Shown: piece by piece, positions 1,138 to 44,103 of the stretch | Layout: each line of letters begins with the position of its first letter | Numbering within the stretch: the first letter of the stretch is position 1 | DNA from: an uncultured Bacteroidales bacterium | Lineage (GTDB): Bacteria > Bacteroidota > Bacteroidia > Bacteroidales > UBA4417 | Length of the DNA: 44,103 bases | Direction of reading: 5' to 3' | Assembly (NCBI GenBank): GCA_903946925.1 | Contig: CAJAXK010000024.1 | Coordinates: 1-44,103, forward strand | Made by a program: the position numbers and the translations under genes | Notes under the pieces: generated by a model | Seen by the model: only the letters and a program-made list of their open reading frames with translations | Database searches by the model: none | Told to the model about the DNA's origin: nothing

Positions 1138-1164
1138 TTTTCAAATGGTTTATGTATCTGATAT

Positions 1165-1716: not shown

Positions 1717-1805
1717 GGTATTTTTTCAATTATAAAATGTATTTAACTCTATCTCAAGTTGCCCTTCTTCTAAATCCTTAATTGAAAGGAATCTATCAAA
1801 AACAT

Positions 1806-2684: not shown

Positions 2685-2725
2685 TATTTGTATTTTGTCT
2701 TATAAACAGCAAATATCTAAAATTA

Positions 2726-2743
2726 TTGACAAAATACGGTCAA
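2726..2743. promoter_or_regulatory. Inverted repeat between AraC gene and GH127 operon (candidate operator)
   Basis: TTGAC and GTCAA arms separated by 8 nt lie 17 nt upstream of the operon's -33 element. The location is typical for an AraC-family activator site, but there is only one copy and the arms are short, so this is a candidate. Confidence 0.35.
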
Positions 2744-2759
2744 CACTTGATAAATTAGG

Positions 2760-2792
2760 TTTGCATACACCTCTGATTTTTTTCTACTTTTG
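2760..2792 (+). promoter_or_regulatory. Promoter of the GH127/GH92 operon
   Basis: TTTG at 2760-2763, a 21 nt spacer, then TACTTTTG at 2785-2792: a near-ideal Bacteroidota housekeeping promoter. The start codon at 2815 is 22 nt downstream of the -7 box. Confidence 0.75.
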
Positions 2793-2814
2793 AATCAGCC
2801 AAATAAACCATAAA

Positions 2815-5655
2815 ATGAGAAAAACGATTTTCCCCCTACTTATGCTAACTGCATTGCTGACCAACAAGCCAACAATTATGGCCCAAACTGTAAACAATAA
2901 AGTTTATCAGGTAACAAAACCGCAGAATCAGAAACTGGAATACCTTCCGTTCGGAGAAATCAAACCTGCCGGTTGGATGAAACAGCAGATGCAGCATGAC
3001 CTTGATGGTTTTGTAGGCCATCTGGATGAACTGGTTCCCGATTTAATGGATGATAAAATATATGGAGCCGACCGACTTACAAAAGATCATAAATCAAAGA
3101 ACCTCGGTAATATCGGCCCGGATATGGATCCCCAATACCTTTGGTGGAACAGTGAAACTCAATCGAACTGGCGTGATGGTTTTATCCGTAATGCAATTTT
3201 ACTCAATGACACAAAGTATCTGGCAAAAGTGCAGGAATATATTGACTATATACTTTCAACCCAGGATGCTGATGGCTATCTCGGCATTTATTCCGGCGAT
3301 TTGCGCTACACTTTTAAAGACGAAAATGGTGAACTTTGGGCTAAAGCAACGGTTCTGCGCGGATTGCTTGCATGGTACGAATATACTCAGGAGCCCGAAA
3401 TCCTTCAAGCAGTTGCAAAAGCGGTTGACAATGTAATGAAGAATTATACCATCAACTCCAGTTCCCCTTTCAAATCGGTTAAGCCATTTGCTGGAGGCGT
3501 AACACACGGATTGGTTTTTACAGATATTCTTGACCGACTTTACCAGATTACCGGAAAGCAATTGTACCTCGATTATGCGTTATTTCTTTATAAAGATTTC
3601 TCTGAAAATATATTGGCGGAAGATGCGCAGTACGCAAAAATCATGAACCCTAACTATAAACTTAAGGAACATGGTGCCCATACTTACGAGCATTTGCGTC
3701 CATTGGCCTTGGCATATTTCACTTCTGGAAACCCCGAACTGAAAAAAGCCTTGGATATTTATCTTGATAGGATTGCGGATTGCACAACCCCGGCAGGCGG
3801 CCCAATTGGTGATGAATGGGTTGGTGAGCGGACGGCCAATGCCACACACACGGGCTACGAATATTGTTCGTTACAGGAATTGATGGACGGATATATCAAT
3901 TTGTTGCAAAAATCGGGCAATGCGCACTTTGGCGACCTCACCGAAAACCTGTTTTTTAATGCTGCCCAAGGAGCGCGGCTTAACGAGAAAAGCGCGATAG
4001 CCTATTGCAAAACCGATAATTCGTATCAAATGACAGGTTCCAGGAATGGGGAAGCTCAGGGAACCGAAAAGCAAACGCGGTTTAAATATTCGCCTGCGCA
4101 CCAGGATGTGGCCGTGTGCTGTTCACCAAATGCTGGGCGCATAATGCCATATTTTGTAAAATCCATGTGGATGAAAGACAGTGAAGGCCTTGTTTCTGCT
4201 TTGCTGGGGCCAAATGAAATTAAAACCACGATAAAAAACATTCAGGTTCAAATTGTGGAAGAAACCGATTATCCATTCTCAAATTCAATAGTTTATACTG
4301 TTTCAGTCGAAAAACCGGTGTCGTTTACCATAAAAATCAGGAAACCTGAATGGGCAAAAACATTTAAACTCAACTGCAATTTCACCGAAAAGGACGGATA
4401 CATTATTGTGACAAAAGCTTGGAAAAACAAGGAAACCATACAGCTTGAACTCGATGGCAAACCTGATTTGAAAAAGGATAGGAACCGGGAAAATTATTTC
4501 ACTTATGGCGCATTGGTTTTTGCATTGCCGATTGAAAGCAAGGAAACAATAACAAAGAAATATAGTGTTGAGGGGTTAAACGATTATGATTATGAACCTG
4601 TTAACCTTCAGAAATACAGGCTTTCTTCCTCTGAAAAACCTGAAATCGCAATTAAAAAACCTGAAGTTACTGCTAGCAAATGGCATAGTATTGAGATGAA
4701 TACCATTCTTATAAATGAAAAAACCGGCAAAGCCGAAAATGCAACTTTGGTTCCTTTGGGGGCAACCATTTTGCGTCAGGAAACCTTTCTGGATGAAGTA
4801 AACACTTCGTCAGGAACATGTGTGCGTTATAATGATTTCGCTTCAAAATATGTTAATCCACGCAGGGTTGATGTCTGGCTGCCTGATGGTTACGACGCAA
4901 AAAAGAAATACACTGTTCTCTACATGCATGATGGGCAGAATCTTTTTGACACCACCGTCAACACGTTTAACCACCAGGAATGGGGTGTGGATGAAACCCT
5001 TGGAAGATTGATTAGCGAAAAGAAGGTAAAAGATTGTATGGTCGTTGGCATTTGGAATACGGCTCAAAGGCATCAGGAATATTTCCCACAGAAACCCTTC
5101 GAATCGTTGAACCCCGAAGAAAAGGCCATTGTTACCAAACAGTTGCAGGCGGCAGGAAGAACCACTGAATTATTTAATCCGGTGTCTGATAAGTACTTGA
5201 AATTTGTTGTTGAAGAGTTGAAACCATTTATTGACAAAACCTTTTCCACATTTACTGACAGGGACAATACTTTTATCGCCGGCAGCAGCATGGGCGGATT
5301 GATTTCGATGTATGCAATTTGTGAATATCCTGAAGTGTTCGGCGGGGCAGCGTGCCTTTCAACGCATTGGCCCGGCACATTTTCGATGGAAAACAACCCG
5401 GTACCTGATGCATTTATCAGCTACCTGAAAAACAATCTTCCAATCCCTCAAAACCACAAAATCTACTTCGATTATGGCGATCAAACCTTAGATGCCATGT
5501 ACCCTCCTTTGCAGAAAAAGGTGGATGAGGTTATGAAAGTAAAAGGGTTTACTGATAAAAACTGGGAAACCAAATTCTTTCCGGGAAAAGACCACAGTGA
5601 AAAATCGTGGAACGAAAGGCTATCTGTACCCTTACTCTTCCTGTTAACAAAATAA
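2815..5655 (+). CDS. Secreted GH127-type glycoside hydrolase fused to CE1-like esterase
   Basis: 946 aa with a signal peptide (residues 1-23, cleavage near MAQ). Residues about 38-610 are a DUF1680/GH127-type (alpha/alpha)6 barrel. GH127 beta-L-arabinofuranosidases use a zinc-bound cysteine nucleophile held by an E-x-C pair and a CC pair; here E349-Y-C351 and C435-C436 fit, so the domain looks catalytic. From about residue 640 a second domain begins: a putative esterase of the alpha/beta-hydrolase fold (esterase D/CE1 group) with an oxyanion-region YMHDG, nucleophile elbow GSSMGG (Ser825), a candidate Asp near 889 and His927 (GKDHS). It probably removes arabinose-type residues and ester groups from the same glycan. 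First gene of an operon with the GH92 gene, 4 nt downstream. Specificity could be GH146 or another DUF1680 relative instead. Confidence 0.88.
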   Translation: MRKTIFPLLMLTALLTNKPTIMAQTVNNKVYQVTKPQNQKLEYLPFGEIKPAGWMKQQMQHDLDGFVGHLDELVPDLMDDKIYGADRLTKDHKSKNLGNIGPDMDPQYLWWNSETQSNWRDGFIRNAILLNDTKYLAKVQEYIDYILSTQDADGYLGIYSGDLRYTFKDENGELWAKATVLRGLLAWYEYTQEPEILQAVAKAVDNVMKNYTINSSSPFKSVKPFAGGVTHGLVFTDILDRLYQITGKQLYLDYALFLYKDFSENILAEDAQYAKIMNPNYKLKEHGAHTYEHLRPLALAYFTSGNPELKKALDIYLDRIADCTTPAGGPIGDEWVGERTANATHTGYEYCSLQELMDGYINLLQKSGNAHFGDLTENLFFNAAQGARLNEKSAIAYCKTDNSYQMTGSRNGEAQGTEKQTRFKYSPAHQDVAVCCSPNAGRIMPYFVKSMWMKDSEGLVSALLGPNEIKTTIKNIQVQIVEETDYPFSNSIVYTVSVEKPVSFTIKIRKPEWAKTFKLNCNFTEKDGYIIVTKAWKNKETIQLELDGKPDLKKDRNRENYFTYGALVFALPIESKETITKKYSVEGLNDYDYEPVNLQKYRLSSSEKPEIAIKKPEVTASKWHSIEMNTILINEKTGKAENATLVPLGATILRQETFLDEVNTSSGTCVRYNDFASKYVNPRRVDVWLPDGYDAKKKYTVLYMHDGQNLFDTTVNTFNHQEWGVDETLGRLISEKKVKDCMVVGIWNTAQRHQEYFPQKPFESLNPEEKAIVTKQLQAAGRTTELFNPVSDKYLKFVVEELKPFIDKTFSTFTDRDNTFIAGSSMGGLISMYAICEYPEVFGGAACLSTHWPGTFSMENNPVPDAFISYLKNNLPIPQNHKIYFDYGDQTLDAMYPPLQKKVDEVMKVKGFTDKNWETKFFPGKDHSEKSWNERLSVPLLFLLTK

Positions 5656-13398: not shown

Positions 13399-13716
13399 GG
13401 ATGGGTTAGGTTATTAAGGTGTTCAAGGTTCAATGCTTCGCGTTTAAGGGTTCAATGTTTCGCGTTCAAGGGTTCAATGTTTAATTGGCTTCGCCGTTCA
13501 ATTGGCTTCGCCGTTCAAATGTTCGCTTGTTCAAATGTTCGCTTGTTCAATTGTTCGCTTGTTCAATTGTTTTATTGCTAAAACGTTCAATTGTTTGCTT
13601 GTTCAATTGTTACAACTACCGCTTCAAATCCCCACATCCTCAAATCCCCACATCCTCAAATTCCTACATCCCCACATTTTCAAATTTTCAAATTATCTCA
13701 TTTTCAAATTTAAATT
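13399..13716. repeat. Two low-complexity tandem-repeat blocks between kinase and regulator
   Basis: The 311 bp kinase-regulator gap is almost entirely repeats. Block one (about 13415-13610) is a chain of 16-22 nt units beginning TTCAA, for example two copies of TTCAATTGGCTTCGCCG-like and several TTCAAATGTTCGCTTG-like units; some contain a GGC-TTC-GCC mini-hairpin. Block two (13622-13716) has units like CAAATCCCCACATCCT and contains no G at all for 95 nt on the plus strand. It starts exactly at the kinase stop codon (13712-13710). Both blocks would be transcribed if kinase and regulator share an mRNA. Confidence 0.85.
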
Positions 13717-14777
13717 GCTTTCTCAAACAGTGGCAGCATTACCACAAATTTATCATTTTCAAATTTAACAACAATATTTTTCCCGGTTAGATGCAGATAG
13801 CGGTTGCGGATATTATCAAGGCCAACACCGGTTGAAGCATCTTTGTCGATTTTGGTTTTTACAGTATTTTCAACAACTACAAAACTGTTTTCACGAACAT
13901 AAACTTTAACAAAGAGGGGATCTTCTTTAGAAACCACATTGTGCTTCAGTGCATTTTCGAGCAGCATCTGCAGGGCTAAAGGCGCTATGGCGTAATGATA
14001 GAACTTTTCAGGAACATCAAACTCCACATTCAGTTTATCGCCAAAACGGCTTTGCTGTATAAAAACATAGTCGCGGGCAATTTTAAGTTCGTCGCGGAGC
14101 AAAACGGCATCTTTATCGCGCGATTGCAGCATGTAACGCATTATTTCCGAAATGCTTTCAACATACCGGGCTGCAACCGGGTTATCGTCAACAAGCATCA
14201 GTAAAGTATTCAAACTGTTAAAAAGAAAATGGGGGTTTACCTGATTGCGTAACGTATCGTAACGTGCTTCGAGGTTTGCTTTTTCCAATGCCTGTGTACG
14301 CAGGAGGTTCTCCTTCCATTGAATGAAAAACGCCACCGATGCATAAATGGAACTGATCATGAAAGTTATAATCAAGGATCCAACGATCAAGGCAGTTTTT
14401 TCCGATTGGGAAATTGAGACTTTCAGGAAATATTCGGCAGCATAAATTTCGCCCAACTCGACCAACAAAACAAAAACACTGAGCGAAACCACCTGAAATA
14501 CAATTAGTTTAGTGGTTTCTTTAAATACCGGGTATCGTCTTAATGCATACTGTATCAGTATCATGCTTCCGTTCCAAATCAAAGCGGTACGGATAAATGA
14601 TATTATGAACGCTTTCATTAAACTGGCTCCCCCTTGAGCATAACCAAAATCAAGGAACACCGAAACTGCTGAAATCAAGGTTATCCCAACTACGCGGATA
14701 ATAATCTCGCGCCAATGGTTCTGAGGCTGTTCAATTACAGGTATGCAATCTATTGTATCCTTGGGCGAAGTTTTCAT
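13710..14777 (-). CDS. LytS/YehU-type sensor histidine kinase
   Basis: 355 aa. The N-terminal ~150 residues carry about four hydrophobic membrane segments with no obvious extracellular domain. Then comes the His_kinase core: phospho-acceptor His in NQVNPHFLFNSLNTLLMLV, and the N-box in APLALQMLLENALKHNV, with a glycine box in GVGLDNIRNRY. This is the usual partner of LytTR regulators. ATG at 14777. It lies 44 nt after the NAD(P)H oxidoreductase gene on the same strand and 311 nt before the regulator. Confidence 0.93.
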   Translation of the reverse strand: MKTSPKDTIDCIPVIEQPQNHWREIIIRVVGITLISAVSVFLDFGYAQGGASLMKAFIISFIRTALIWNGSMILIQYALRRYPVFKETTKLIVFQVVSLSVFVLLVELGEIYAAEYFLKVSISQSEKTALIVGSLIITFMISSIYASVAFFIQWKENLLRTQALEKANLEARYDTLRNQVNPHFLFNSLNTLLMLVDDNPVAARYVESISEIMRYMLQSRDKDAVLLRDELKIARDYVFIQQSRFGDKLNVEFDVPEKFYHYAIAPLALQMLLENALKHNVVSKEDPLFVKVYVRENSFVVVENTVKTKIDKDASTGVGLDNIRNRYLHLTGKNIVVKFENDKFVVMLPLFEKAI

Positions 14778-15578: not shown

Positions 15579-15641
15579 ACCTTTGACCTTTGACCTTTGA
15601 CCTTTGCCCTTTGCCTTTTGCCCTTTGCCTTTTAACTTTTG
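15579..15641. repeat. Period-7 tandem repeat after the TonB receptor
   Basis: Four exact ACCTTTG units (15579-15606) are followed by CCCTTTG, CCTTTTG, CCCTTTG and decaying copies, ending about 8 nt from the stop codon of the TonB receptor gene. The rest of the 15401-15648 gap shows no gene. Confidence 0.9.
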
Positions 15642-15648
15642 AGCTTTC

Positions 15649-18009
15649 CTAAAAATGAATCCTATACTGCATCATTGGGAAAAACCCTAACTGATAAACA
15701 TTGGTAACTTCGTTTTTCGAAGGACTGTAGGTTTGCATTAGAATATTGTCGTGGTCGGTAAAATTTTCGATGTAAAACACCCATTCCTGCGAAACTTTGC
15801 GCCAATTAAGCCTGTACCCAAATTTTATATCCGCTTTAAAAAACGCATCAAACTGCTCGCTATATGCTTTTGTTTCATCGTATTTGGTTGCACCTGCGTT
15901 CTGCGAAGCTTCCAAATCAATTGGCGTGTAACGTTTGCCTCCGGCATAAGTCATTTTAAAATCAATATTGAAAGTTGATTTGCTATTTATGGTAAACTCT
16001 TTGCCAAACAATACATTAGCTACGTAATTTCCATTAAATGCAGTGTTCCTTTCCATCCCGTCGCTGCCTTTGTATTTTGATTCGAACAAGGATAGCGTTG
16101 CCAGGTAATAGTAGTTTTTATAAAAAAACCGCTCTGCTGTTAGTTCCAATCCGTAGTTTTGGCCGGTTCCGGTATTAATAAGGCTATCCTGAGCCGCAAC
16201 GCCCCAGCCGGCACCGGTATTCAACATGCTGAACGAAGTACTGTTTTTTTCTACCGGCACATCATAAAGTGTTTGATAGTACATTTCGGCCTTCAAACGA
16301 GTGTTTGCGGTTATTGAATTGTTGTACCCTAACACAAACTGGTGCGATTTGGTGAAACCAAGATCGTTGTTGGTTAGAATTAGTGAACCATCATCCATTT
16401 GTGTACCAAGGTAATAGGTTGACAAGGCTTGTGTACGGGAATGGAGTCCATACCCAAAACTCAGTTTATGTTTTGTATTTATCTGCCAGTTTGCACCAAG
16501 CCGTGGCTCAACGCTGGCTGCCCCGTTAAGGTCGAAATAACTGAAATGTAAGCCGGGCACAAGGCTATATTTTTCGTTAAAACGATACGTTGCCTGTACG
16601 TATGGCTGATATAAAGTAACCCCTTCGGCCAAACTTTTGCTGTCGTCAATCAATGCGCGCAAGGTATTGGTTTCGCTGTCGTAAACTTTCGACAACAGGT
16701 CAAAACCCATGCGATCAACAAGAAATCCAGCCCTTGCCGACAAGCGGCTATTGTATTTTTTATGCAGGAAACCGCTCAGCGAGGTACGGAATTCGGCATA
16801 GTTGTGGTCAACATAAGGATGCGGGATGCCAGTAACATCAAGCGTATCAATGGTTGTTCCCCCTTTTTGGTAAATCCCGGAAAGTATGATTTTGTAGTAC
16901 GTATGTTCGTTCATGAAACGAGTGTACGAAATTCCGGTTGCGCCCATCCTCGAACTGTTTACCAAATCCTGACCTTCGCCTGAATACATATCCTGTTCAT
17001 TGCCATTTTGGCTGTCGAGCATGGCTATTTCGCTGTCGCCACCCAACCCGAAAAACGTTATCTTTCCTTTTTTAACCGGGAAATTAAGCTTGAACGAAAG
17101 GTCTTTGTATTTTGGGATCCCGGTAGTTCCCAAATCTATTATTCCATCCATAAGTTCCAAAGTGGAATAGCGGAAATTGGCCAAGTATGAAGCCTCATGT
17201 TTCTTGCTGAAAGGACCTTCGGCACCAACCTCAAAACCATTGAAACCAACCTGAAAAAGTTGTTCGTGTTTTTGGTTGTTGCCATTTCGCATATTCAGGT
17301 CGAAAACGCCGCTCAGCGCATTGCCATATTCGGCAGGGAAAGCACCGGTGAAGAAATCGCTGTTTTCGAGCAGGTTGTTGTTTAACATGCCAACAGGGCC
17401 GCCGGTTGTTCCGCCTTCAGCAAAATGGTTTGGGTTTGGTATATCAATATCTTCGAGCCTCCAGAGCAATCCACTGGGCGAATTGCCACGGATAATAATA
17501 TCGTTGCGCTGGTCGTTGGCCGAAGAAACACCGGCATAGTTCATGGCCATACGGGCTACATCACCTCGGCTTCCGGCATATTTTTCGGTCTCTTCAACCG
17601 AAAAAGTACGGGCGCTTACGGTTGCCATTTGGTTGCGGGTCTGATCCTTGCGGGCGGAACCTGTAATTACTACACCGCTGCTCATGGTTACATTTTCCTC
17701 AAGTTCCACTTCAAGCACAACTTCTTTCACCGAATTGACAATTATCCCTTGAAAAGTGGCTGGTTTATACCCGATATAACTAACCTGAATGCTTTGACGG
17801 CCAATTGCAACCTTTTCGAGACGGAAATTTCCATCGTTGTCGGTAACAGTTCCGGTTAAAGGTTGAACGTCGAGCAGCACCACATTTGCCCCAGGCAAAG
17901 ATGTTTTTGAATCCTTGTCGAAAACGTGCCCGCGGATGGTTTGAACCTGTTGTGCCCAGCCCAAAGCCGAAACAAGGAAAACTAAAGTGAAAATAAATGT
18001 CCTTTTCAT
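15649..18009 (-). CDS. TonB-dependent outer membrane receptor
   Basis: 786 aa with a signal peptide (cleavage near GWAQ, residue 20). Residues ~23-110 form a carboxypeptidase-regulatory-like beta-sandwich (IRGHVFDKDSKTSLPGANV, GTVTDNDGNFRL). A plug domain follows (DQTRNQMATVSARTFSVEE, NDIIIRGNSPSGLLWRLED), then a ~550-residue beta-barrel ending in the aromatic MQYRIHF signature. It is shorter than SusC proteins (~1000 aa) and has no SusD beside it, so it is more likely a siderophore, metal or vitamin-type receptor; the ligand is unknown. A minus-strand -7-like box CATCTTTG (18043-18036) lies 27 nt before the ATG. Confidence 0.92.
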   Translation of the reverse strand: MKRTFIFTLVFLVSALGWAQQVQTIRGHVFDKDSKTSLPGANVVLLDVQPLTGTVTDNDGNFRLEKVAIGRQSIQVSYIGYKPATFQGIIVNSVKEVVLEVELEENVTMSSGVVITGSARKDQTRNQMATVSARTFSVEETEKYAGSRGDVARMAMNYAGVSSANDQRNDIIIRGNSPSGLLWRLEDIDIPNPNHFAEGGTTGGPVGMLNNNLLENSDFFTGAFPAEYGNALSGVFDLNMRNGNNQKHEQLFQVGFNGFEVGAEGPFSKKHEASYLANFRYSTLELMDGIIDLGTTGIPKYKDLSFKLNFPVKKGKITFFGLGGDSEIAMLDSQNGNEQDMYSGEGQDLVNSSRMGATGISYTRFMNEHTYYKIILSGIYQKGGTTIDTLDVTGIPHPYVDHNYAEFRTSLSGFLHKKYNSRLSARAGFLVDRMGFDLLSKVYDSETNTLRALIDDSKSLAEGVTLYQPYVQATYRFNEKYSLVPGLHFSYFDLNGAASVEPRLGANWQINTKHKLSFGYGLHSRTQALSTYYLGTQMDDGSLILTNNDLGFTKSHQFVLGYNNSITANTRLKAEMYYQTLYDVPVEKNSTSFSMLNTGAGWGVAAQDSLINTGTGQNYGLELTAERFFYKNYYYLATLSLFESKYKGSDGMERNTAFNGNYVANVLFGKEFTINSKSTFNIDFKMTYAGGKRYTPIDLEASQNAGATKYDETKAYSEQFDAFFKADIKFGYRLNWRKVSQEWVFYIENFTDHDNILMQTYSPSKNEVTNVYQLGFFPMMQYRIHF

Positions 18010-20827: not shown

Positions 20828-20926
20828 TTTCATTTTCACATCCCCAAATTCTCAAATTTTCAAATTCTCACATTACCGCATTACCACATTATCGCATTCT
20901 CACATTATCACATTATCGCATTATCA
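20828..20926. repeat. Period-8 tract forming the 3' end of ispG
   Basis: Chain of about 8-nt units of the CACATTAT/CGCATTAT kind preceded by TCAAATTT units; only three G residues in 99 nt on the plus strand, so the ispG-sense strand is almost free of C. The ispG stop codon (20915-20913) and last codons are built from the repeat. Two overlapping plus-strand ORFs of the track (20706-20996, 20764-21006) are artefacts of it. Confidence 0.85.
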
Positions 20927-22496
20927 GCTCCACCAACTTTTGGATAGCCTCGTCGGGATGCAGATTTTTAAACGCAATTTCTTTTCCTTTATATAGAGTT
21001 ACCTGATCCTTGCCGGCCCCAACGTACCCATAATCGGAATCGGCCATTTCGCCTGGTCCATTTACTATACAGCCCATAACGGCAATTTTCAGGCCTTTAA
21101 GATGCCCTGTGGCGGCTTTTACCTGCTGTAATGCGCTTTCGATATCGAAAAGTGTCCTTCCACACGATGGGCATGAAATAAATTCGGTGCGGGTAATGCG
21201 GGCACGGGTGGCTTGCAGGATGGCAAAAGCTGTATTATTAACCGCTTCGGGATTTATATTTGGGGCTGTTGGCCAAATGGCATTACCAATCCCATCAATA
21301 AGCAAACTGCCAAAATCAATGGCACTATTTACCTGAAATTGCAGCAGATCCGAAGTTAAATACTTGTTTTTCAACACTATTGGTTTACTGCTTTCAACAT
21401 CCATTTTATCAAGTTCCCGCCTTAATCCTGAAGCATTTCCTTCGCATATTTCAAGAAGGTGGAAGTTGTGATCGGGCAAATTGCCGACAACAGAAAAATG
21501 TTCGTCAACCAAACAGGTTTTGCCAATTTTTTCAGCCAAAACAGCTACCGGATAATTTCCGCCAATGCCCGAAACGGCTATGGTTTCGCGTTGCCCAAAA
21601 AGCTTTGGTTTGGTAGGTTTCCAACTTATTCCCTTTTGGCCCAGGTTTCGTGCATGATTATATCGTTCGGTAATTGCCAAAGCAACTGGTATTTCGATTT
21701 CGGGCGCTCCTGTGAGCGAAACACGTATGGTATCGCCAATTCCATTTTCGAGTAAGGAGCCAATGCCGGCTGCTGATTTAATAATACCATCCTCGCCATC
21801 GCCAGCTTCGGTAACACCAAGGTGGATAGGGAAGTCCATTTTTTCGGCTGCCATTTTTTCGGCTAACAACCTGGTAGCCTGCACCATTACGCGCACATTG
21901 CTCGATTTTATCGAAAAAACCAAATTTTTGAAATTTTCATTCAGGCAAATCCTGCCAAATTCCAGGGCACTTTCAACCATTCCTTCGGGCGTATCGCCAT
22001 ACCTATCCATAATTCGCCCACTCAGCGAACCGTGGTTGGTGCCAATGCGTATTGCGGTGCCGTTTTGTTTGCAAATTTGCAGCAATGGCCTAAGCCGTTG
22101 GGCTATCCTTTCAAGTTCTTGGTAGTAATCGCGTAAGGTTAATTGGTTGGCCGATATGCGTTTGTCGGTATAATTTCCGGGATTTATCCGTACTTTTTCC
22201 ACAATACCGGCAGCAATTTCGGCAGCGTTTGGGTTAAAATGTATATCGGCAATAAGCGGGACTTTTATCCCTTTCGAGCGTAAGCTTTTCTTAATCAAAG
22301 CCAAATTGTTTGCTTCGGTAATTCCTTGTGCTGTAATGCGCACCATCTCGCATCCGGCATTTACCAGTCGGACACACTGATTGACGGTTGCTCCAATATC
22401 GTTGGTGTCCGTATTGGTCATGGATTGCACCCTTATCGGGTAATTCCCGCCAAGGGGCAGGTCGCTGATGTTTATGGTGCGGGATTGGAAGGACAT
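20913..22496 (-). CDS. ispG: 4-hydroxy-3-methylbut-2-en-1-yl diphosphate synthase
   Basis: 527 aa from the ATG at 22496 (MSFQSRTINI); the track's 29-residue extension reads through a low-complexity tract and is rejected. IspG reduces methylerythritol cyclodiphosphate to HMBPP in the non-mevalonate isoprenoid pathway with a 4Fe-4S cluster. Visible are the TIM-barrel start (GNYPIRVQSMTNTDTND, VRITAQG), DIHFNP, RIGTNHGSLS and the C-terminal cluster domain with cysteines in SCPSCGRT and AVMGCIVNGPGE. It is longer than the ~370 aa E. coli enzyme because it carries the extra middle domain of the plant/Chlamydia/Bacteroidota type, though in a shortish version. Possible -7 box TACCTTTG at 22542-22535. 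Confidence 0.97.
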   Translation of the reverse strand: MSFQSRTINISDLPLGGNYPIRVQSMTNTDTNDIGATVNQCVRLVNAGCEMVRITAQGITEANNLALIKKSLRSKGIKVPLIADIHFNPNAAEIAAGIVEKVRINPGNYTDKRISANQLTLRDYYQELERIAQRLRPLLQICKQNGTAIRIGTNHGSLSGRIMDRYGDTPEGMVESALEFGRICLNENFKNLVFSIKSSNVRVMVQATRLLAEKMAAEKMDFPIHLGVTEAGDGEDGIIKSAAGIGSLLENGIGDTIRVSLTGAPEIEIPVALAITERYNHARNLGQKGISWKPTKPKLFGQRETIAVSGIGGNYPVAVLAEKIGKTCLVDEHFSVVGNLPDHNFHLLEICEGNASGLRRELDKMDVESSKPIVLKNKYLTSDLLQFQVNSAIDFGSLLIDGIGNAIWPTAPNINPEAVNNTAFAILQATRARITRTEFISCPSCGRTLFDIESALQQVKAATGHLKGLKIAVMGCIVNGPGEMADSDYGYVGAGKDQVTLYKGKEIAFKNLHPDEAIQKLVELIMR

Positions 22497-22499: not shown

Positions 22500-22560
22500 T
22501 GAAGGAAAAAGGGAAAAAGGCAAAAGGAAAAGTGCAAAGGTAAAGTGAAAAGTGAAAAGA
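22500..22560. repeat. Purine-rich degenerate repeat carrying a possible ispG promoter box
   Basis: Degenerate AAAAGG/AAAAGTG units on the plus strand. Read on the ispG strand this is CTTTTCACTTTACCTTTG..., including TACCTTTG (22542-22535), a full match to the TAnnTTTG -7 consensus, 39 nt before the ATG. No obvious -33 TTTG accompanies it. A similar stretch without the box lies at 22755-22815. Confidence 0.55.
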
Positions 22561-30426: not shown

Positions 30427-30751
30427 TCTTAAAAAAGTGAAGGAAAGTAACAGGAAAGTATAAGTGTTTGGTCAACAACACGATCGCACAAAAATATACA
30501 TTTTTTCGACATGCCGGGTTTTGCATTTTAACCCACGACTACCAATAAAAGCAAACATAATGTGGGCGCCTTTCGTGTAAGGTCTCATTTTTACAGCCTT
30601 AAAACCGCTGAATCGTTACTATTCCAAACTGGAAGTTATAACTGAAACAACGCCGTTCGCCAGGCAATATATTTTTATTCGCTATAATAACAGGATAACC
30701 AAGAAAGCCAGATTTCTACAGTTCATCTTTCATCTTTCAAATAACAAATAA
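30427..30751. other. Gene-free gap
   Basis: About 325 bp, AT-rich. Holds a short GTTCATCTTTCATCTTTC repeat near 30720 just downstream of the T9SS gene's stop codon and a TATACTTTCC that resembles a -7 box upstream of the BamA-like gene. No ORF, RNA or clear terminator seen. Confidence 0.5.
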
Positions 30752-32833
30752 CTATTCAACTATGAGCTTATGAGCTTCAATCCCAGAATGGTTTTCCATT
30801 TTTACAAAGTACAAGCCTGTTGACAAGTTGCTTAAATCTATTTCTACGTTGGTTACATTGCTGGTTATTGATTTCATCATAAGTTTTCCGGTTATATCTA
30901 TTATGCTTATACAAGTTTCGCCTCCCTGAAGGCCTGCACTAAAGACAGTAACCTTATTGTTTGCAGGGTTTGGATATATGGTAAACTTGTGTTTTGATAC
31001 CTGAAATTCTTGAAGCGGCACAAAAGTCCCATTGGTAGTTTTCAATATAGTTCCATTGCTACCCACGGCATATCCGGTATTGGCATCGGTAAAATATACA
31101 TCCAGCAACCAGCCTGCATATCCGCCGGGGAAAGGGATCCATGTTGCGCCGCCGTTAACGGTCATCAACATGGTTTCGGCTCCAACCACATACCCAATAT
31201 CGGCTACCGGGAAATACACCGACATCAAATCGCGTGTGGTGCCGCTTGGCAGCAAAGTCCAGGAATTGCCGCCGTCCACGGTTTTTATAATTGTGCCATA
31301 CAATCCAACGGCATATCCGGTAAGCGCGTCGGTGAAACTAACCGAAAAAAGCATATGCTCGGCACCGGTTTGGCACAAAGTCCAGGTATTTCCGCCATTC
31401 CTTGTTTTTAGCACCATCCCTTGGGTGGGCGAACCACCGGCAGCATAACCTATATTGGCATCCACAAAATCAACCGCAAACAAATGGTCGCTTATGCCGC
31501 TGTTTTGTGCGAACCAGGTATTTCCCGCATCAATGGTTTTAAGGATAGTGCCTTGATGGCCAACGATGTATCCGGTGTTAGCATTTGTAAAACAAGCCTC
31601 TTCAAGCACTTGTGTTGTTCCGCTGGGCATGGATTCCCAATTTGAACCCCCATCAGTTGTTTTCTTTAACAAACCAACCCGGCCGATAGCATAGCCTGTA
31701 TTTGCATCAGTAAAATAAACGGATTCGTACCATTCGGATTGAATACCGGAATTCGACAGTACAGTCCAGTTTGAGCCTCCGTTTATAGTTTTTAATATGG
31801 TGCCATACATGCCAACCGCATAACCCGTGTTTGTTTCGGGGAAATGGATTGAAGACAGTTCGTTAGTCAAACCCGAAATTGTATTGCTCCAGGTTACACC
31901 GCCATCAACAGATTTTAGCATGGTTGCATTCATCCCCATTGCATGAATGGTTGTTCCATTGGTTGGGAACACCGAAAATAAACTATTTGTGGTGCCGCTC
32001 GTAACTGTTGTCCACGAAGTTCCTCCGTTTGTGGTACGCAAAATGGTCCCATTGCTGAAAGTCCCCATGTTTTCACAAACCGCATAACCTTTCATTATAT
32101 CGGTAAAATATACTGCACTAATATCTGATCCGTTTCCTTGAGCCGAAACTGTCCAGTTGGTGCCTTTGTCAATGGTTTTCAATACTATGCCTTGCTGCCC
32201 AACGGCAAATCCGATGTAATCGTTGGCAAAAAATATCGATTTTAAGTCCATATACATGCCATCGGAAAAAACTGTCCAGGTAGTGCCGCCATCAATGGTC
32301 TTAAGTATGATTCCATTGTCGGCTGCCACAAATCCGTTGTTGGCATTGGTGAAAAATACCGAATTTAACTTAACTGCCACAGGACACGATATTTCTGTCC
32401 AGGAAATTCCCCCATCGGCAGTTTTAATAATAGTTCCCGAATCGCCAACCGCATACCCGGTATTTATTTCGGGGAAATGGATCGAATACAAATTTTTTGA
32501 AGTGCCGATCGATAAAGCCTCCCAAGTTGAACCTCCGTTTTCAGTCTTTAAAACTGTGCCGCCAGTACCTGCTACAAACCCTGTATTTGCTTCGGGGAAA
32601 TTGACTGAATAAAAACTGCTTGAACTTACCAAAGGCTGAACGGCCCAGGTATTCCCACCATCGCAGGTCCTTATAATAGTCCCAAACGAACCAACGGCAA
32701 ACCCATTTTCGTTATCAACAAAGCAAACCGACATTAGGTGGTTTCCCTGTGGCAGAGGGTTTTGCCAGATCCATTGCGCGGAAGCAATTGCTGAAAGGAA
32801 TAAGAAAGTCGTGAGGAAGGGTGCTTTTTTCAT
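30752..32833 (-). CDS. Secreted YCF48-like multi-blade propeller with T9SS sorting domain
   Basis: 693 aa. Signal peptide (cleavage near AIASA, residue 19), then about 13-14 repeats of roughly 45 residues of the form TGYAVGxxGTIxKTxDGGxxWT, the signature of YCF48/PSII-stability-factor and BNR-type propeller blades. A T9SS sorting domain closes it (FTIYPNPANNKV, IIDITGKLMMKS, STGLYFVKMENHSG). The number of blades is compatible with two seven-bladed propellers. These proteins are surface-exposed, with unclear roles in adhesion or carbohydrate binding. The repeats are diverged at the protein level and not identical in DNA. Confidence 0.92.
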   Translation of the reverse strand: MKKAPFLTTFLFLSAIASAQWIWQNPLPQGNHLMSVCFVDNENGFAVGSFGTIIRTCDGGNTWAVQPLVSSSSFYSVNFPEANTGFVAGTGGTVLKTENGGSTWEALSIGTSKNLYSIHFPEINTGYAVGDSGTIIKTADGGISWTEISCPVAVKLNSVFFTNANNGFVAADNGIILKTIDGGTTWTVFSDGMYMDLKSIFFANDYIGFAVGQQGIVLKTIDKGTNWTVSAQGNGSDISAVYFTDIMKGYAVCENMGTFSNGTILRTTNGGTSWTTVTSGTTNSLFSVFPTNGTTIHAMGMNATMLKSVDGGVTWSNTISGLTNELSSIHFPETNTGYAVGMYGTILKTINGGSNWTVLSNSGIQSEWYESVYFTDANTGYAIGRVGLLKKTTDGGSNWESMPSGTTQVLEEACFTNANTGYIVGHQGTILKTIDAGNTWFAQNSGISDHLFAVDFVDANIGYAAGGSPTQGMVLKTRNGGNTWTLCQTGAEHMLFSVSFTDALTGYAVGLYGTIIKTVDGGNSWTLLPSGTTRDLMSVYFPVADIGYVVGAETMLMTVNGGATWIPFPGGYAGWLLDVYFTDANTGYAVGSNGTILKTTNGTFVPLQEFQVSKHKFTIYPNPANNKVTVFSAGLQGGETCISIIDITGKLMMKSITSNVTNVEIDLSNLSTGLYFVKMENHSGIEAHKLIVE

Positions 32834-33006: not shown

Positions 33007-34107
33007 ATGAACGTAAACGGAACCCATTATCGCACTATTTGGATGGACAGCCTAACCGGCATAGTAAGCATGATTGACCAAAACGCCCTTCCCTTTGAGT
33101 TTAAGATTTTTGAAGCAAAAAGTTATCGCGAAACCTGCCATGCTATTGTTACCATGGTTACCCGTGGGGCAGGCGCGATTGGTGCTGCAGCCGGATTTGC
33201 CATGGCGCAGGCTTTTTTGGAAGGTGCGGGTTTGGATGTGGAAATGAGAGGGGAGAAGGGCGAGGGGAGAGGGGAGAGCGAAACTATGTATTCGGTGGCG
33301 CAACTTGGTTTTTTTGATCAGGCACGCAAAGAAATAGAAGCTACGCGCCCTACTGCCCGGAACCTGTTTTTTGCCACTGAAAAAGTGTATAATGCCGGAT
33401 TGAAAAGTGTGGATGCTGCTTTACAAGAAGCCCAATTTTTAGCTGATGAAAATATTGCCGATTCGAAAAAAATTGGCGAATACGGCAGCAGACTGATAAA
33501 AAATGGCAGTAAAATACTTACCCATTGCAATGCCGGATGGCTTGGTTTTGTTGATTTTGGAAGTGCATTGGCTCCTTTGTATGTTGCCAAACGGCAAGGG
33601 AAAGATTTTTTTGTTTATACTGACGAAACCCGCCCGCGCAACCAGGGCGCTCGGCTAACCGCCTGGGAATTGCAGAACGAAGACATTCCACACAAAATTG
33701 TTCCCGACAATGCCGGCGCACACTTGATGAGCCATGGATTGGTTGATTTGATAGTTGTGGGTGCCGACCGCATAGCTGCCAACGGCGATACGGCCAATAA
33801 AATCGGGACTTTCGAGAAAGCCATCGTAGCTAAGGAATTTGGGATACCTTTTTATGTTGCCGTACCTTTTTCGACTATTGATTTTTCGATCTCTGATGGG
33901 TCGCAAATCCTTATCGAAGAACGTAGCGAAGACGAAGTATTGTTTTATTCCGGACCAGATTCTGAAGGTATTATGCGGACTATACGTATGGCATCACTTG
34001 GTTCGCACGCCATCAACCCTGCGTTTGACGTAACTCCGGCAAAGTATATTACGGGGTTTATTACAGAAAAGGGGATTTTTTCAGCTGAAGAATTGTCTGG
34101 ATTGTAA
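33007..34107 (+). CDS. mtnA: S-methyl-5-thioribose-1-phosphate isomerase
   Basis: 366 aa from the ATG at 33007. MtnA isomerises methylthioribose-1-phosphate to the ribulose form in methionine salvage; the eIF2B-like alpha/beta fold is cytoplasmic. Motifs are intact: TRGAGAIGAAAGF near residue 52, EATRPTARNL, ILTHCNAG with the catalytic Cys174, TRPRNQGARLTAWEL and VVGADRIAANGDTANKIGT with catalytic Asp254. Between residues about 75 and 95 it carries an odd charged stretch (EMRGEKGEGRGESET) encoded by a purine-rich low-complexity repeat, absent from usual family members. No other salvage genes are adjacent. Confidence 0.95.
   Translation: MNVNGTHYRTIWMDSLTGIVSMIDQNALPFEFKIFEAKSYRETCHAIVTMVTRGAGAIGAAAGFAMAQAFLEGAGLDVEMRGEKGEGRGESETMYSVAQLGFFDQARKEIEATRPTARNLFFATEKVYNAGLKSVDAALQEAQFLADENIADSKKIGEYGSRLIKNGSKILTHCNAGWLGFVDFGSALAPLYVAKRQGKDFFVYTDETRPRNQGARLTAWELQNEDIPHKIVPDNAGAHLMSHGLVDLIVVGADRIAANGDTANKIGTFEKAIVAKEFGIPFYVAVPFSTIDFSISDGSQILIEERSEDEVLFYSGPDSEGIMRTIRMASLGSHAINPAFDVTPAKYITGFITEKGIFSAEELSGL
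33240..33283 (+). repeat. In-frame purine repeat inside mtnA
   Basis: GAGAGGGGAGAAGGGCGAGGGGAGAGGGGAGAGCG-type sequence with repeated GAGGGGAGA units, adding Gly/Glu/Arg-rich residues in frame. It is the same composition as the intergenic tracts at 18160-18210, 22621-22640 and 43840-43930. Confidence 0.75.
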
Positions 34108-37303: not shown

Positions 37304-38902
37304 ATGAGAAAAAATGTTGATTTTTTGGTTATAGGTACAGGTATTGCCGGACTGAGTTTTGCTTTAAAAGCATCAAAGTTTGGAAAAGTTTGCATTGTTG
37401 CCAAAACCAAGGCCGAAGAAACTGCTACCAAATATGCCCAGGGCGGTATTGCTGCTGTAATGTACACCCCCGACACATACGAAAAACACATTCAGGACAC
37501 TCTGATTGCTGGCGACGACCTGAACGATGAAAAAGCAGTTAGGATTACCATTACTGAAGCACCTGAAAGGATTAAAGAGCTAATCGAATTGGGTGTTAAT
37601 TTTGATAAAAACGCATCGGGGAAATACGATCTCGCCAAAGAAGGCGGGCATTCCGAATTCCGGGTGCTTCACCACAAGGACCAAACCGGGCTTGAAATTG
37701 AAGAGACTTTACTTGAAAGGGCTCGCGAAGATAAAAATATCGAAATCCTCGAAAACCATTTCACGGTCGAAATTATCACACAGCACCATTTGGGCGAATA
37801 TGTAAACCGCCGCACTCCAGATATTACCTGCTACGGTGCTTATGTCCTCGATCGTGCCAACAACAGCATTGATACCATTCTTGCAAAAATCACTTTGATG
37901 GCTACCGGCGGGGCCGGAAATGTGTATGCCACCACTACCAATCCCCCGATTGCGACCGGCGATGGTATTGCCATGGTTTACCGGGCAAAAGGGACCATAG
38001 AAAAAATGGAATTTATCCAGTTCCATCCTACTTCCTTGTACAACCCTTCCGAAAAACCGTCGTTCCTGATTACCGAGGCTTTGCGGGGTTTTGGAGGGAT
38101 ACTGAAGGATGCAAACGGGAACGAGTTTATGCAGAAATACGATAAACGCCAATCGCTCGCCCCACGCGATATTGTTGCCCGTGCCATTGATAACGAACTG
38201 AAAATAAGTGGGGAAGACCATCTGTTTCTCGACTGCCGCCACCTCGACCGCAACAAACTCATTGACCATTTTCCCGGCGTTTATGCTAAATGCCTGAGCA
38301 TCGGCATTGATATGACCAAGGAAATGATACCTGTGGTACCGGCTGCCCATTATACCTGTGGCGGTATTAAAGTAGATGAATGGAGTTGCAGTTCTATCAT
38401 CAATTTATACGCTTCAGGCGAATGTTCATCTACCGGATTGCATGGAGCTAACCGATTGGCCAGCAATTCGTTGCTCGAATCGCTGGTTTATTCGCACCGC
38501 GCTTGTATTGATGCTTCCGAAAAGCTTAAACATATTGAATATTGCAACGAAGTGCCCGATTGGAATGCCGAAGGCACCGTGATGAATGAAGAAATGGTGC
38601 TTATTACCCAAACCATGCGCGAATTGCAGGGGATCATGACCAATTACGTGGGCATTGTAAGATCCAATTTGCGTTTGAAACGTGCTGCCGACCGGCTTAA
38701 CATACTTGAACGCGAAACCGAAGATTTGTACAAGCGTTCCGTACTGATTGCCAAAATATGTGAAGTACGCAACCTGATAAAAGTTGCAACCCTTATTATA
38801 AAAATGGCCCTCGAACGCAAGGAAAGCCGAGGGCTACATTTTTCAATTGATTATCCAAAGGTCAACGATAAGGAAATTCATTCGTTTAGTCCTGAAGATT
38901 AA
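37304..38902 (+). CDS. nadB: L-aspartate oxidase
   Basis: 532 aa. NadB oxidises L-aspartate to iminoaspartate, the first step of de novo NAD synthesis, using FAD. Visible are the FAD-binding start VIGTGIAGLSFALKA, TKYAQGGIAAV, GGHSEFRVLH, ATGGAGNVYATTTNPPIATGDG, EFIQFHPTSLY, LAPRDIVARAID and the C-terminal CGGIKVDEW...LYASGECSSTGLHGANRLASNSLLESLV. Length is normal (E. coli 540). nadA and nadC are not adjacent, unlike in some genomes. The stop codon is followed by a G-rich tract that can form a quadruplex. Confidence 0.97.
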   Translation: MRKNVDFLVIGTGIAGLSFALKASKFGKVCIVAKTKAEETATKYAQGGIAAVMYTPDTYEKHIQDTLIAGDDLNDEKAVRITITEAPERIKELIELGVNFDKNASGKYDLAKEGGHSEFRVLHHKDQTGLEIEETLLERAREDKNIEILENHFTVEIITQHHLGEYVNRRTPDITCYGAYVLDRANNSIDTILAKITLMATGGAGNVYATTTNPPIATGDGIAMVYRAKGTIEKMEFIQFHPTSLYNPSEKPSFLITEALRGFGGILKDANGNEFMQKYDKRQSLAPRDIVARAIDNELKISGEDHLFLDCRHLDRNKLIDHFPGVYAKCLSIGIDMTKEMIPVVPAAHYTCGGIKVDEWSCSSIINLYASGECSSTGLHGANRLASNSLLESLVYSHRACIDASEKLKHIEYCNEVPDWNAEGTVMNEEMVLITQTMRELQGIMTNYVGIVRSNLRLKRAADRLNILERETEDLYKRSVLIAKICEVRNLIKVATLIIKMALERKESRGLHFSIDYPKVNDKEIHSFSPED

Positions 38903-38912
38903 AGGTAGGTTT

Positions 38913-38938
38913 GGGTTTTGGGGGTTGGGATTTAGGGG
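38913..38938 (+). other. G-quadruplex motif after nadB
   Basis: Four runs of at least three G (GGG, GGGGG, GGG, GGGG) separated by 4, 2 and 5 nt within 26 nt, 10 nt after the nadB stop codon on the sense strand. It fits the G3+N1-7 rule and lies in a 56 nt stretch with no C (38893-38948). Confidence 0.65.
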
Positions 38939-39069
38939 TAAAGTAATACATTTTCATATTAAAGGAAATTGATGATTTTTTGAGAAGAACGTAAGACAAA
39001 TTGCGTTTTCAGTTGTTTTTGTTCTGATTAGAAAATAACTTTAAGCACCGACACTTTAAACCATTTATA

Positions 39070-39989: not shown

Positions 39990-40538
39990 ATGCCTCTCAT
40001 TTATCCCATTAAAGGAATTGCCCCAACCATTGGGAAAAACACATTTATAGCCGAAAATGCTACCATTGTTGGCGATGTGGTTATGGGCGACAATTGCAGT
40101 GTGTGGTTTAATACTGTAATCCGTGGCGATGTACATTCCATCCGAATCGGCAACAATGTTAACATTCAGGACGGCGCCATTATCCATTGCACTTACCAAA
40201 AAGCACCTGTTTGTATTGGAAACAATGTTTCAATAGCCCATGCTGCCATTATCCATGGCTGCACCATACACGATAATGTTTTGGTTGGCATGGGAGCCAT
40301 TGTAATGGATGGGGTGGTGGTCGAAAGCAATTCGATAATTGCCGCCGGGGCAGTGGTTTCCCAAAATACACTTGTTGAATCGGGGAGCGTTTATGCCGGT
40401 GTTCCCGCAGCCAAAATCAAATCGATAGACAAAACCTTACTCGAAGGCCAGGTAAACCGAATATCGAAAAGCTATACCATGTATGCCAGTTGGCACGATG
40501 ATTCTATTGTTCCATTGGTTGAGGAAGGGAATGGTTGA
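39990..40538 (+). CDS. Gamma-carbonic anhydrase family protein
   Basis: 182 aa, YrdA/PaaY-type left-handed beta-helix. Hexapeptide repeats are visible throughout (IVGDVVMGDNCSVWFNTVIRGD, NIQDGAIIH, IAHAAIIHGCTIHDNVLVGMGAIV, GAVVSQNTLVESGSVYAGVPAAK). The three metal-binding His positions of this family appear in DGAIIH, IAHAA and IIHGC. These are trimeric cytoplasmic enzymes or metal-binding relatives; carbonic anhydrase activity is uncertain without assay. The stop codon TGA is built from the first unit of the GGTTGAT repeat that follows. Confidence 0.93.
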   Translation: MPLIYPIKGIAPTIGKNTFIAENATIVGDVVMGDNCSVWFNTVIRGDVHSIRIGNNVNIQDGAIIHCTYQKAPVCIGNNVSIAHAAIIHGCTIHDNVLVGMGAIVMDGVVVESNSIIAAGAVVSQNTLVESGSVYAGVPAAKIKSIDKTLLEGQVNRISKSYTMYASWHDDSIVPLVEEGNG

Positions 40539-40764
40539 TGGGTTGATGGTTGATGGGTTGATGGGGGAAATAGAAAATAGGGAAATAGAAAGTAGTTATT
40601 GGGAAAATGGGAGATGAAAAAATAGAAAATAGTTAATTGGAAAATGGAAAATGGTAGTTGGGAAATGTTAAAACAGTCGTTCTTGTTTCAGCAATCTCTA
40701 AATGGCAAAATTTCAGTCAACTATTTTCCATTAACTATTTCCCAATAACTAAACCACAACAACT
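40514..40764. repeat. C-free and G-free tracts forming a long inverted repeat
   Basis: From 40514 to 40673 there is no C on the plus strand (160 nt), built of GGTTGAT/GGGTTGAT and GAAAATAG units. The right part is G-poor, with 40717-40764 free of G. TAGTTATTGGGAAA (40593-40606) is exactly complementary to 40738-40751, and TAGTTAATTGGAAAAT (40630-40645) nearly to 40723-40737, so the two halves form an imperfect inverted repeat. It fills most of the gap between gamma-carbonic anhydrase and the YugP-like gene. Confidence 0.85.
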
Positions 40765-40833
40765 GCCACAATGTCGCACCCATTCCCTTGGCAGGGAATT
40801 TGTTAAATAAGCATCAATCTAAAAACAGAAACC

Positions 40834-41508
40834 ATGTACATAGTAATCTTTATTGGTTTTATGATCATCAGTTTGATTGTGAGCCAGGTGTTAAAATCGA
40901 AATTCAAGAAATATTCTGCCATTCCCATTGGTAAAGGCTTTACGGGAAAAGAAATTGCCGAAAAGATGCTCCGCGACAATGGGATTATGGATGTTCAGGT
41001 AGTTTCGGTGCAGGGACAGCTTACCGACCATTATAACCCACAAACCAAAACCGTAAACCTAAGCCAGGATGTATATTACAAATCGAGCATTTCGGCTGCT
41101 GCCGTTGCCGCCCACGAATGTGGCCATGCCGTTCAGCACGAGGAAGCGTATGCTTTCCTAAAGTTGCGTACCGCAATGGTTCCAGCAGTTAGTTTTGCCT
41201 CCAACTGGATGCAATGGGTGCTGCTGGCCGGAATTTTACTCATAAACACTTTCCCCCAACTCTTGCTGGCTGGTATCATTTTATTTGCTGCCACAACCCT
41301 TTTCAGTTTTGTAACCCTGCCTGTTGAAATTGATGCCAGCCGTCGTGCCCTGCTTTGGCTCAACAACAGTGGTATAACAACTGCCGAAACCCATCCAAAA
41401 GCACAGGATGCACTTAAATGGGCCGCTTATACTTATGTTGTAGCTGCTTTGTCGTCGTTGGCCACACTTCTGTATTACGTAATGATTTTTATGGGCCGCA
41501 GGGATTAA
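40834..41508 (+). CDS. YugP-like membrane zinc metallopeptidase
   Basis: 224 aa. N-terminal membrane anchor (IVIFIGFMIISLIVSQVL), a cytoplasmic or periplasmic segment, the metallopeptidase motif AAHECGHAVQH (HExxH, with the family's AxHECGH form) and two or three further membrane segments near residues 125-165 and 195-215. It is a single-subunit integral membrane protease of the Zn_peptidase_2/YugP family; its substrates are unknown. Ends 20 nt before a good terminator. Confidence 0.93.
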   Translation: MYIVIFIGFMIISLIVSQVLKSKFKKYSAIPIGKGFTGKEIAEKMLRDNGIMDVQVVSVQGQLTDHYNPQTKTVNLSQDVYYKSSISAAAVAAHECGHAVQHEEAYAFLKLRTAMVPAVSFASNWMQWVLLAGILLINTFPQLLLAGIILFAATTLFSFVTLPVEIDASRRALLWLNNSGITTAETHPKAQDALKWAAYTYVVAALSSLATLLYYVMIFMGRRD

Positions 41509-41617: not shown

Positions 41618-41699
41618 CAAATTTCATATTTACATACCTACAACCTACTTCTCAAACTCACAACCAATTACTCACTACTCAAACCATTCAAAAAAACAC
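41618..41699. repeat. G-free tract upstream of the ABC ATPase gene
   Basis: 82 nt with no G on the plus strand, made of loose CAACCTACTTCTCAAACTCAC units. It precedes the promoter at 41762. The remainder of the 41562-41761 stretch shows no gene. Confidence 0.75.
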
Positions 41700-42522: not shown

Positions 42523-42826
42523 GGGTGGATGGTTTGTTATTAGGTGGGTCAAATTTTTGGAGGTTCTATTAGTTTATTGAATAATGGTCTGCTCCTTGTA
42601 AAAATAAGATTTTTTTATCCGCCATTTTTTCCCCAGAATTTTAGAGAATAAAATTTGGGGTTAATTGGAGCCTTTCCATAAAGTCAAGTTTTATTGTTAT
42701 TTGCGATGACCGAATTACAATTGACAAATATAACTCACTGAAAAACAATCGTAATTCGTAATTCGTAATTCGTAATTTTTAGAGTGAACCAAGTTTAAAA
42801 ACAGACTCTAATTAACTCCCCCACCC
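42523..42826. other. Gene-free gap with hairpin and CGTAATT repeat
   Basis: Starts with G-rich sense sequence (AGGGGTGGATGG). CCCCAGAATTTT and AAAATTTGGGG (42631-42660) form a hairpin, preceded rather than followed by a T run. Four tandem CGTAATT copies lie at 42750-42777. Neither terminator nor gene is certain. Confidence 0.6.
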
Positions 42827-43935: not shown

Positions 43936-43971
43936 TTCCAATTCCCAATTCCCTTTCACCTTTAACTAATA

Positions 43972-44103
43972 ACTGTCCTATCATGAAATAGGTTGACAAG
44001 AAGTTTAGTTCATAACTTTACAATTTGTCAAAAATGGGACAGAACAAAGTGCGACGCACCTTCAGTGAACCTTTCAAGCGGGAGAAGGTTAAAATGCTTG
44101 AAG
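43972..44103 (+). mobile_element. Left end of an IS3-type element (partial)
   Basis: The sequence from about 43974 (TGTCCTATCATGAAATAGG) to the window end carries the start of an IS3-type transposase A gene. The exact terminal repeat cannot be set without the other end. Confidence 0.55.
44034..44103 (+). CDS. IS3-type transposase OrfA, N-terminal fragment
   Basis: From the ATG at 44034 an open frame reads MGQNKVRRTFSEPFKREKV and continues to the window end. The RRTFSEPFKREKVKMLE pattern is the typical opening of the helix-turn-helix transposase A (HTH_Tnp_1) of IS3-family elements. Cut by the right edge. Confidence 0.7.
   Translation, partial: MGQNKVRRTFSEPFKREKVKMLE

Follow-up and report, generated by a model that had tools for sequence, protein, structure and literature searches.

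Short tandem-repeat arrays in Bacteroidales are oriented by the gene end that they touch

The intergenic DNA of an uncultured Bacteroidales bacterium and of its relatives carries degenerate, decayed tandem arrays with a unit of 7 or 8 nt. Where such an array touches a gene, its orientation is set almost perfectly by which gene end is touched, the G-rich strand being the sense strand after stop codons and the C-rich strand before start codons. The placement rule itself is already known for the heptamers of Xanthomonas and Nostoc, in which it was linked to G-quadruplexes (PMC4692102); what is new is that it holds in repeats which mostly lack the standard (G3) quadruplex motif.

The window analyzed here is a stretch of 44,103 nt, in which the original prediction had singled out tracts free of C or of G at gene ends. 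Recounting confirmed all six sets of coordinates: there are 160 nt without C at 40514-40673, 48 nt without G at 40717-40764, 95 nt and 82 nt without G at 13622-13716 and 41618-41699, respectively, 56 nt without C at 38893-38948, and three G in the 99 nt of 20828-20926. At 20.3% C, and assuming independent bases, a C-free run of 160 nt has a probability of about 1e-12 per window and is thus beyond chance, as had been claimed. All periodic runs of the window which abut a gene boundary obey the orientation rule, namely those at 13613-13705, 15580-15636, 20837-20925, 30724-30752 and 40533-40667 at stop codons and the run at 22504-22559 at the ispG start (Table 1). Some of the initial examples fit only in part: the tracts at 38893-38948 and 41618-41699 are aperiodic at the threshold used, the former being either a decayed array or a product of chance and the latter perhaps a decayed array, and between the end of the focal G-free arm and the start of the YugP-like gene there are 69 nt, the arm stopping just upstream of a promoter-like element. 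Judged by its sequence, this element looks like a candidate activator site combined with a sigma-54-type promoter. In most relatives, the orthologous gap holds low-complexity sequence of another dialect, while the promoter-like element is retained.

Table 1. Repeat arrays, tracts and neighboring features of the window (positions in nt; strand of the feature or of the given unit)
Feature	Position	Strand	Remarks
Octamer array GTGGGGAT/TTGAAAAT	13613-13705	-	G-rich sense; 4 nt past stop of histidine kinase 13710-14777
Heptamer array AAAGGTC	15580-15636	-	G-rich sense; 12 nt past stop of gene 15649-18009
Octamer array GTGATAAT	20837-20925	-	G-rich sense; overlaps stop codon of ispG (GcpE, 20913-22496)
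Heptamer array AAAGTGA	22504-22559	+	C-rich on ispG sense strand; 7 nt upstream of ispG start
Short heptamer array TTATTTG/AAAGATG	30724-30752	-	G-rich sense; at stop of gene 30752-32833
Purine run, GAGAGGGG-type	33246-33278	+	Within open reading frame
C-free tract	38893-38948	+	Spans stop of nadB-like gene 37304-38902; below periodicity threshold
Hexapeptide-repeat gene, gamma-carbonic-anhydrase-like	39990-40538	+	TGA stop inside array
Focal C-free tract	40514-40673	+	Degenerate repeat array; includes stop codon of upstream gene
G-rich periodic run of focal array, sense strand	40533-40667	+	Units TTGATGGG, GAAATAG, AAAATGG
Focal G-free partner arm	40717-40764	-	Reverse complement GGGAAATAGTTAATGGAAAATAGTT; imperfect pairing with focal tract
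Element between focal arm and YugP-like gene	40763-40803	+	CTGCCACAATGTCGCA then TTGGCAGGGAATTTGT; kept in same-genus species
YugP-like putative zinc metallopeptidase (Zn_peptidase_2)	40834-41508	+	
G-free tract	41618-41699	-	Upstream of ABC ATPase; below periodicity threshold
Balanced heptamer array TCGTAATTCGTAATTCGTAATT	42749-42778	+	Precedes cobalamin adenosyltransferase gene
C-rich heptamer run CCAATTCCCAATTCCC	43938-43973	-	

The tracts are defined by their period. An autocorrelation (lag) scan, which is blind to base composition, was applied to four genomes of the same genus, including the bacterium's own (G000). In 466 kb of the latter, the intergenic arrays number 41, 17 and 40 at lags 7, 8 and 14, whereas other lags give 0-2 and shuffled sequence about 0.3. 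The corresponding counts are 38, 8 and 31 in G003, 34, 16 and 30 in G013, and 13, 3 and 10 in G004; over all four genomes, other lags reach 0-5 and shuffles stay below one. A scan restricted to the tracts shows an additional peak at lag 21. The same spectrum is found at lower density in 75 Bacteroidales loci outside the genus (36 at lag 7, 13 at lag 8, 25 at lag 14, and at most 5 at any other). Units of 7 nt include TTAATGG, AAAATAG, GGATTGC, GGAAGTC, AATAGTG and GGAGAAC, and those of 8 nt include GTGGGGAT, GGTTGATG and GTTCAAAG. The predicted genome-wide class therefore exists, but the absence of C or G does not define it and is displaced in this role by the 7/8-nt period: many units carry C, such as GGAAGTC, GGATTGC and GGAGAAC with one C position each, the C-free arrays are one subset, and some arrays are compositionally balanced. 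The balanced array TCGTAATTCGTAATTCGTAATT of the window is missing from the orthologous gap in both G003 and G013. The sequence at 42655-42816 belongs to a repeat of about 155 bp that is dispersed, with about 25 or more copies of 71-83% identity in G002, and contains a short TCGTAAT array.

The arrays are abundant. The bacterium's own genome contains 5143 plus 6116 overlapping C-free 60-mers, and within the 466 kb there are 49 intergenic C-poor, G-rich tracts, compared with 7.7 when dinucleotides are shuffled within single segments and 0.3 with pooled shuffling. It also bears the largest tract load in its genus: overlapping C-free 80-mers number 6616 here and 34-3377 in the 15 relatives counted. 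Dialects are genome-specific, each genome preferring its own units: TTAATRG/RAAATRG has 128 + 121 hits (249) in G000, where the reversed control scores 1 + 1, the 197 other Bacteroidales genomes usually show 0-7, and GGRAGTC is distributed patchily (17/296 Bacteroidota). The related genomes that carry names are metagenome-assembled, and the genomes, one per species, are fragmented and probably metagenome assemblies in general. Since contigs were partly chosen for holding arrays or orthologs of the window, absolute densities are biased, while orientation counts should stay unaffected.

Turnover between species is rapid: among 70 orthologous gaps of G003 and G013, arrays occur in both species in 9, in one in 11 and in neither in 50. 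This sharing exceeds chance (p = 1e-4) and thus indicates that the site of an array persists even as its dialect and length change; at G003:C126:37751 and G013:C94:14814, for example, lengths of about 72 and 156 bp are found. Other repeat types were seen as well. G003:C94:22951-23168 is occupied by tandem copies of a longer unit of about 25 nt (CAATAGATTTTCTGAAGAACAAG), in a gap whose ortholog in G013 holds a heptamer array, and short hairpin-like repeats resembling CTTCGAC...GCTCAG...GTG stand within or beside arrays as if inserted (G013:C24:72109-72375, G000:C234:19765-19904 and others). A BLAST search of one array against plasmids, perhaps with low-complexity masking active, found no match.

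Placement and orientation were determined over 2.39 Mb of the four same-genus genomes, with gene ends taken from our own calls of ORFs of at least 100 aa rather than from curated annotation. Of the 854 tandem gaps, 150 contain arrays, as do 31 of the 186 convergent and 14 of the 204 divergent gaps, so that divergent gaps are nearly three times poorer in arrays than tandem ones (p = 6e-5). In tandem gaps, the odds ratio for orientation is 12.6 (p = 1e-12). At direct contact, the G-rich strand is sense in 72 stop-abutting arrays and antisense in 2, and all 22 start-abutting arrays are C-rich on the sense strand. The predicted rule is thus borne out in a sharper form, and the genome-wide check proposed along with it found both enrichment and orientation bias. 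Outside the genus, where numbers are small, the direction is the same, stops giving 9:1 and starts 5:2, so that 14 of 17 arrays obey the rule (p = 0.013). The polarity has a short range: on the stop side, the ratio of G-rich to C-rich sense arrays is 74:3 within 15 nt and 14:10 at 16-40 nt, and on the start side the ratio of C-rich to G-rich sense runs through 26:0, 9:2, 17:8 and 10:17 with growing distance, fading over about 80 nt.

Start and stop codons abound in C-free sequence and could bias the called ends of ORFs, and those related genomes that carry names are metagenome-assembled; we nevertheless regard an artefact of assembly or gene calling as extremely improbable. Gene calling was ruled out by two simulations. 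When real arrays were inserted at random into array-free gaps and genes were called again, the odds ratio was just 1.67. When arrays were inserted exactly at stops or starts, the two orientations were detected in 290 and 259 of 350 cases at stops and in 185 and 201 at starts, and this nearly equal detectability means that gene calling is not the cause of the polarity. Moreover, the same class is present in independent assemblies of different projects and outside the genus, and the same rule has been published for finished, annotated genomes (PMC4692102).

Contact with the coding sequence is intimate. Periodicity runs across the stop codon, extends about 12 nt at most inside the gene, and peaks at the third stop base (0.62 vs 0.42, z 4.5), where A and G both preserve TAA/TAG as a stop. 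TAG stops are enriched at array-bearing ends (34/73 vs 362/1508, p = 4e-5). In ortholog pairs, a non-conserved C-terminal tail of at least 4 aa accompanies 32% of ends with an abutting array, compared with 16% otherwise (tail length, p = 0.005), so that remodeling of the C-terminus is about twice as frequent. The focal hexapeptide-repeat gene provides an example, ending in VEEGNG before its stop codon where the array-free ortholog of G007 ends in VEEGK, and in the ortholog of G002 the stop lies within another array word. That arrays insert into coding tails and themselves provide the stop was rejected as the sole cause, given that too few arrays lie inside tails and that the position of many abutted stops is conserved.

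The account we favor, to which we give about an even chance, is that the arrays are a prolific kind of the heptameric simple sequence repeats found in other bacteria, that they are born by slippage and that their orientation is filtered by compatibility with start and stop codons. Their period, degeneracy, dialects and turnover point to an origin by slippage together with copying between arrays; replication slippage, one of the origins initially suggested, fits these features best, although it is from them that we infer it. Arrays would most likely lengthen, shorten and switch unit through strand slippage and copying among arrays. A loop of 7-8 nt is expected to evade mismatch repair. They would be tolerated in intergenic DNA, less so where promoters stand back to back, and their growth would continue until a coding boundary is reached, where codon content would filter orientation. 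None of the three stop codons (TAA, TAG, TGA) or of the common start codons (ATG, GTG, TTG) contains C. As a consequence, the G-rich strand is dense in starts, stops and Shine-Dalgarno-like GGRG, whereas the C-rich strand is almost devoid of starts and GGRG: per kb, start codons number 97 vs 7.6, stops 74 vs 30 and GGRG 22 vs 0.5. Only an array with G-rich sense could reach or cross the stop codon at a 3' end and still provide a stop, and only one with C-rich sense would keep clear of false starts at a 5' end.

Codon compatibility is the simplest account of the polarity, and the short range at stops together with a range of leader length at starts fits it better than models based on R-loops, Rho, promoters or quadruplexes. 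It does not account fully for the avoidance of intact, conserved stops by arrays with C-rich sense (2-3 exceptions), and overrunning of stops cannot be the whole story, as many arrays begin directly after stops of conserved position. Furthermore, species-wide dialects at many unlinked sites indicate that units spread from site to site, something that would not follow from local slippage alone. Two candidate drivers were rejected. Loss of mismatch repair as the cause of the array load is contradicted by the presence in the bacterium's own genome of MutL and of MutS_I, whose open frame of 608 aa is probably truncated by the contig end, and spread driven by reverse transcriptase is contradicted by RVT_1 hits which do not correlate with tract load (none in G013; one in G014, which has almost no tracts). 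The MutS_I matches lie at G000:C472:1027-1287 and G000:C405:18096-18428, the weaker one (C472) having an in-frame stop and possibly representing a MutS remnant.

A role of transcription, which the original prediction had considered, could take several forms. Ribosome-free RNA past the stop codon might form R-loops, in which slippage would expand the G-rich non-template strand that has been displaced. This transcription-coupled expansion accounts for G-rich sense arrays right after stops and for the scarcity of arrays in divergent gaps; nonetheless, we hold it to be improbable, since it predicts G-rich sense also in the ribosome-free leaders before starts, where the opposite is found (22:0 C-rich), and also a persistence of the bias past the first 15 nt from a stop, which is not observed. 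Alternatively, the arrays might act as insulators, with read-in RNA being C-rich and G-poor, of the type that loads Rho, so that read-in and antisense transcription are stopped, or with a promoter-like activity of the G-rich strand which must face away from genes. A single geometry, in which the G-rich strand faces away from the nearest gene, fits both ends, and the composition of the C-rich strand, although its composition only, matches C-rich, G-poor Rho utilization sites. The chance that this explanation is correct is nevertheless slighter still: the bias, lost at 16-40 nt from stops, does not reach far enough for Rho, TAnnTTTG is scarcer on the G-rich strand than in ordinary intergenic DNA (0.5 vs 1.9 per kb), and an insulator role sits poorly with the free gain and loss of arrays among relatives. 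A function linked to transcription or RNA ends is unsupported, and the polarity is too closely confined to codons to require it.

Structures formed by the arrays have also to be weighed. The heptamers of Xanthomonas and Nostoc, which follow the same placement rule, fold into quadruplexes in vitro (PMC4692102), and a G2 motif is found in 36 of the 72 stop-abutting arrays, compared with 6% of array-free gene ends. The arrays might accordingly be functional G-quadruplex elements, or i-motif elements of the C-rich strand, with an orientation that reflects regulation by quadruplexes. We assign this a low probability. The standard G3 motif is present in just 3 of the 72 stop-abutting arrays and in 25 of 249 runs overall, so that most lack the runs of G3 or G4 able to form quadruplexes, and because 69 of the 72 do without it, quadruplexes cannot be the general cause. 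The rule is also kept by dialects such as TTAATGG/AAAATAG and GGAAGTC, and the polarity is gone at 16-40 nt from the stop, a behavior that an effect of structure need not show.

Even less probable is that the arrays are hairpins, acting as terminators or 3'-end stabilizers, with a G-rich and a complementary C-rich arm. At the focal site, the predicted pairing as an inverted repeat held up moderately better than in shuffled sequence, with a fold of the gap at -52.9 kcal/mol (z -2.9, 1/200 shuffles as good), and in several species the orthologous gap has differing inverted-repeat arms. As a typical architecture, the pairing failed. Gaps with arrays are no more structured than array-free ones (median z -0.59 vs -1.44), matched inverted arms which surpass all cross-pairings are found in 11% of the former and 18% of the latter, and most gaps hold tracts of one polarity only; complementary arms with structure beyond chance are thus seen at the focal site only and do not characterize the class.

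The closest known system consists of the G-rich heptamers GGGAATC of Xanthomonas and GGGGA(C/T)T of Nostoc PCC 7120, which lie on the sense strand within 50 bp of a stop and on the antisense strand in the 50 bp that precede an ORF, and for which quadruplex formation was stressed and no function was found (Rehm et al., 2015; PMC4692102). Like these, the arrays described here are intergenic and dispersed, commonest between aligned ORFs and rare between divergent ones, G-rich on the sense strand near stops and on the antisense strand near starts, and they vary in copy number among relatives and include some inverted pairs (PMC4692102). The Rehm heptamers have one main consensus with G3/G4 runs, whereas here there are many dialects, octamers as well as heptamers, strong degeneracy and mostly no G3 motif. 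Beyond the published rule, the polarity of abutting arrays is near-absolute, fades within tens of nt and is independent of the G3 motif. The recurrence of the rule in at least three distant phyla could also reflect a shared, quadruplex-independent and orientation-sensitive process which lays arrays from the gene boundary, G-rich strand first and away from the gene, instead of later selection against the wrong orientation; we think this unlikely, if somewhat less so than the other alternatives.

Direct repeats of the heptamer TAACTGA have been described in Beggiatoaceae, Cyanobacteria and five Bacteroidetes (MacGregor, 2015; PMC4679880). They resemble the present arrays in being intergenic, patchily distributed and often located beside start codons, and differ in that one heptamer is fixed and related heptamers are rarely repeated in the genome tested (PMC4679880). 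A survey of long repeats found 7-nt units, termed LSSR, over-represented in some genomes and proposed polymerase slippage (Mrazek et al., 2007, as cited in PMC4679880 and PMC4692102); it is a general survey, and the passages that cite it mention no orientation rule. The lag spectrum reported here has the same over-representation relative to shuffles, for 7-nt and also for 8-nt units. TAACTGA is not among the commonest array units here. In heterocystous cyanobacteria, the STRR are families of intergenic heptamer tandem repeats. STRR fingerprinting of Nostoc has been mentioned (PMC5088731). A 50-kb stretch of a cyanobacterial plasmid contained a single intergenic lag-7 array and yielded no positive control.

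A noticeable share of the intergenic DNA in these Bacteroidales thus consists of fast-changing arrays of 7/8-nt units. That dialects without G3 follow the rule removes quadruplexes as its general cause and offers a simple, testable alternative. Furthermore, the findings suggest that repeats are rewriting the 3' ends of genes, stop codons and C-terminal residues among them, and they serve as a warning that predictions of terminators, sRNAs and promoters may stumble on arrays in such genomes.
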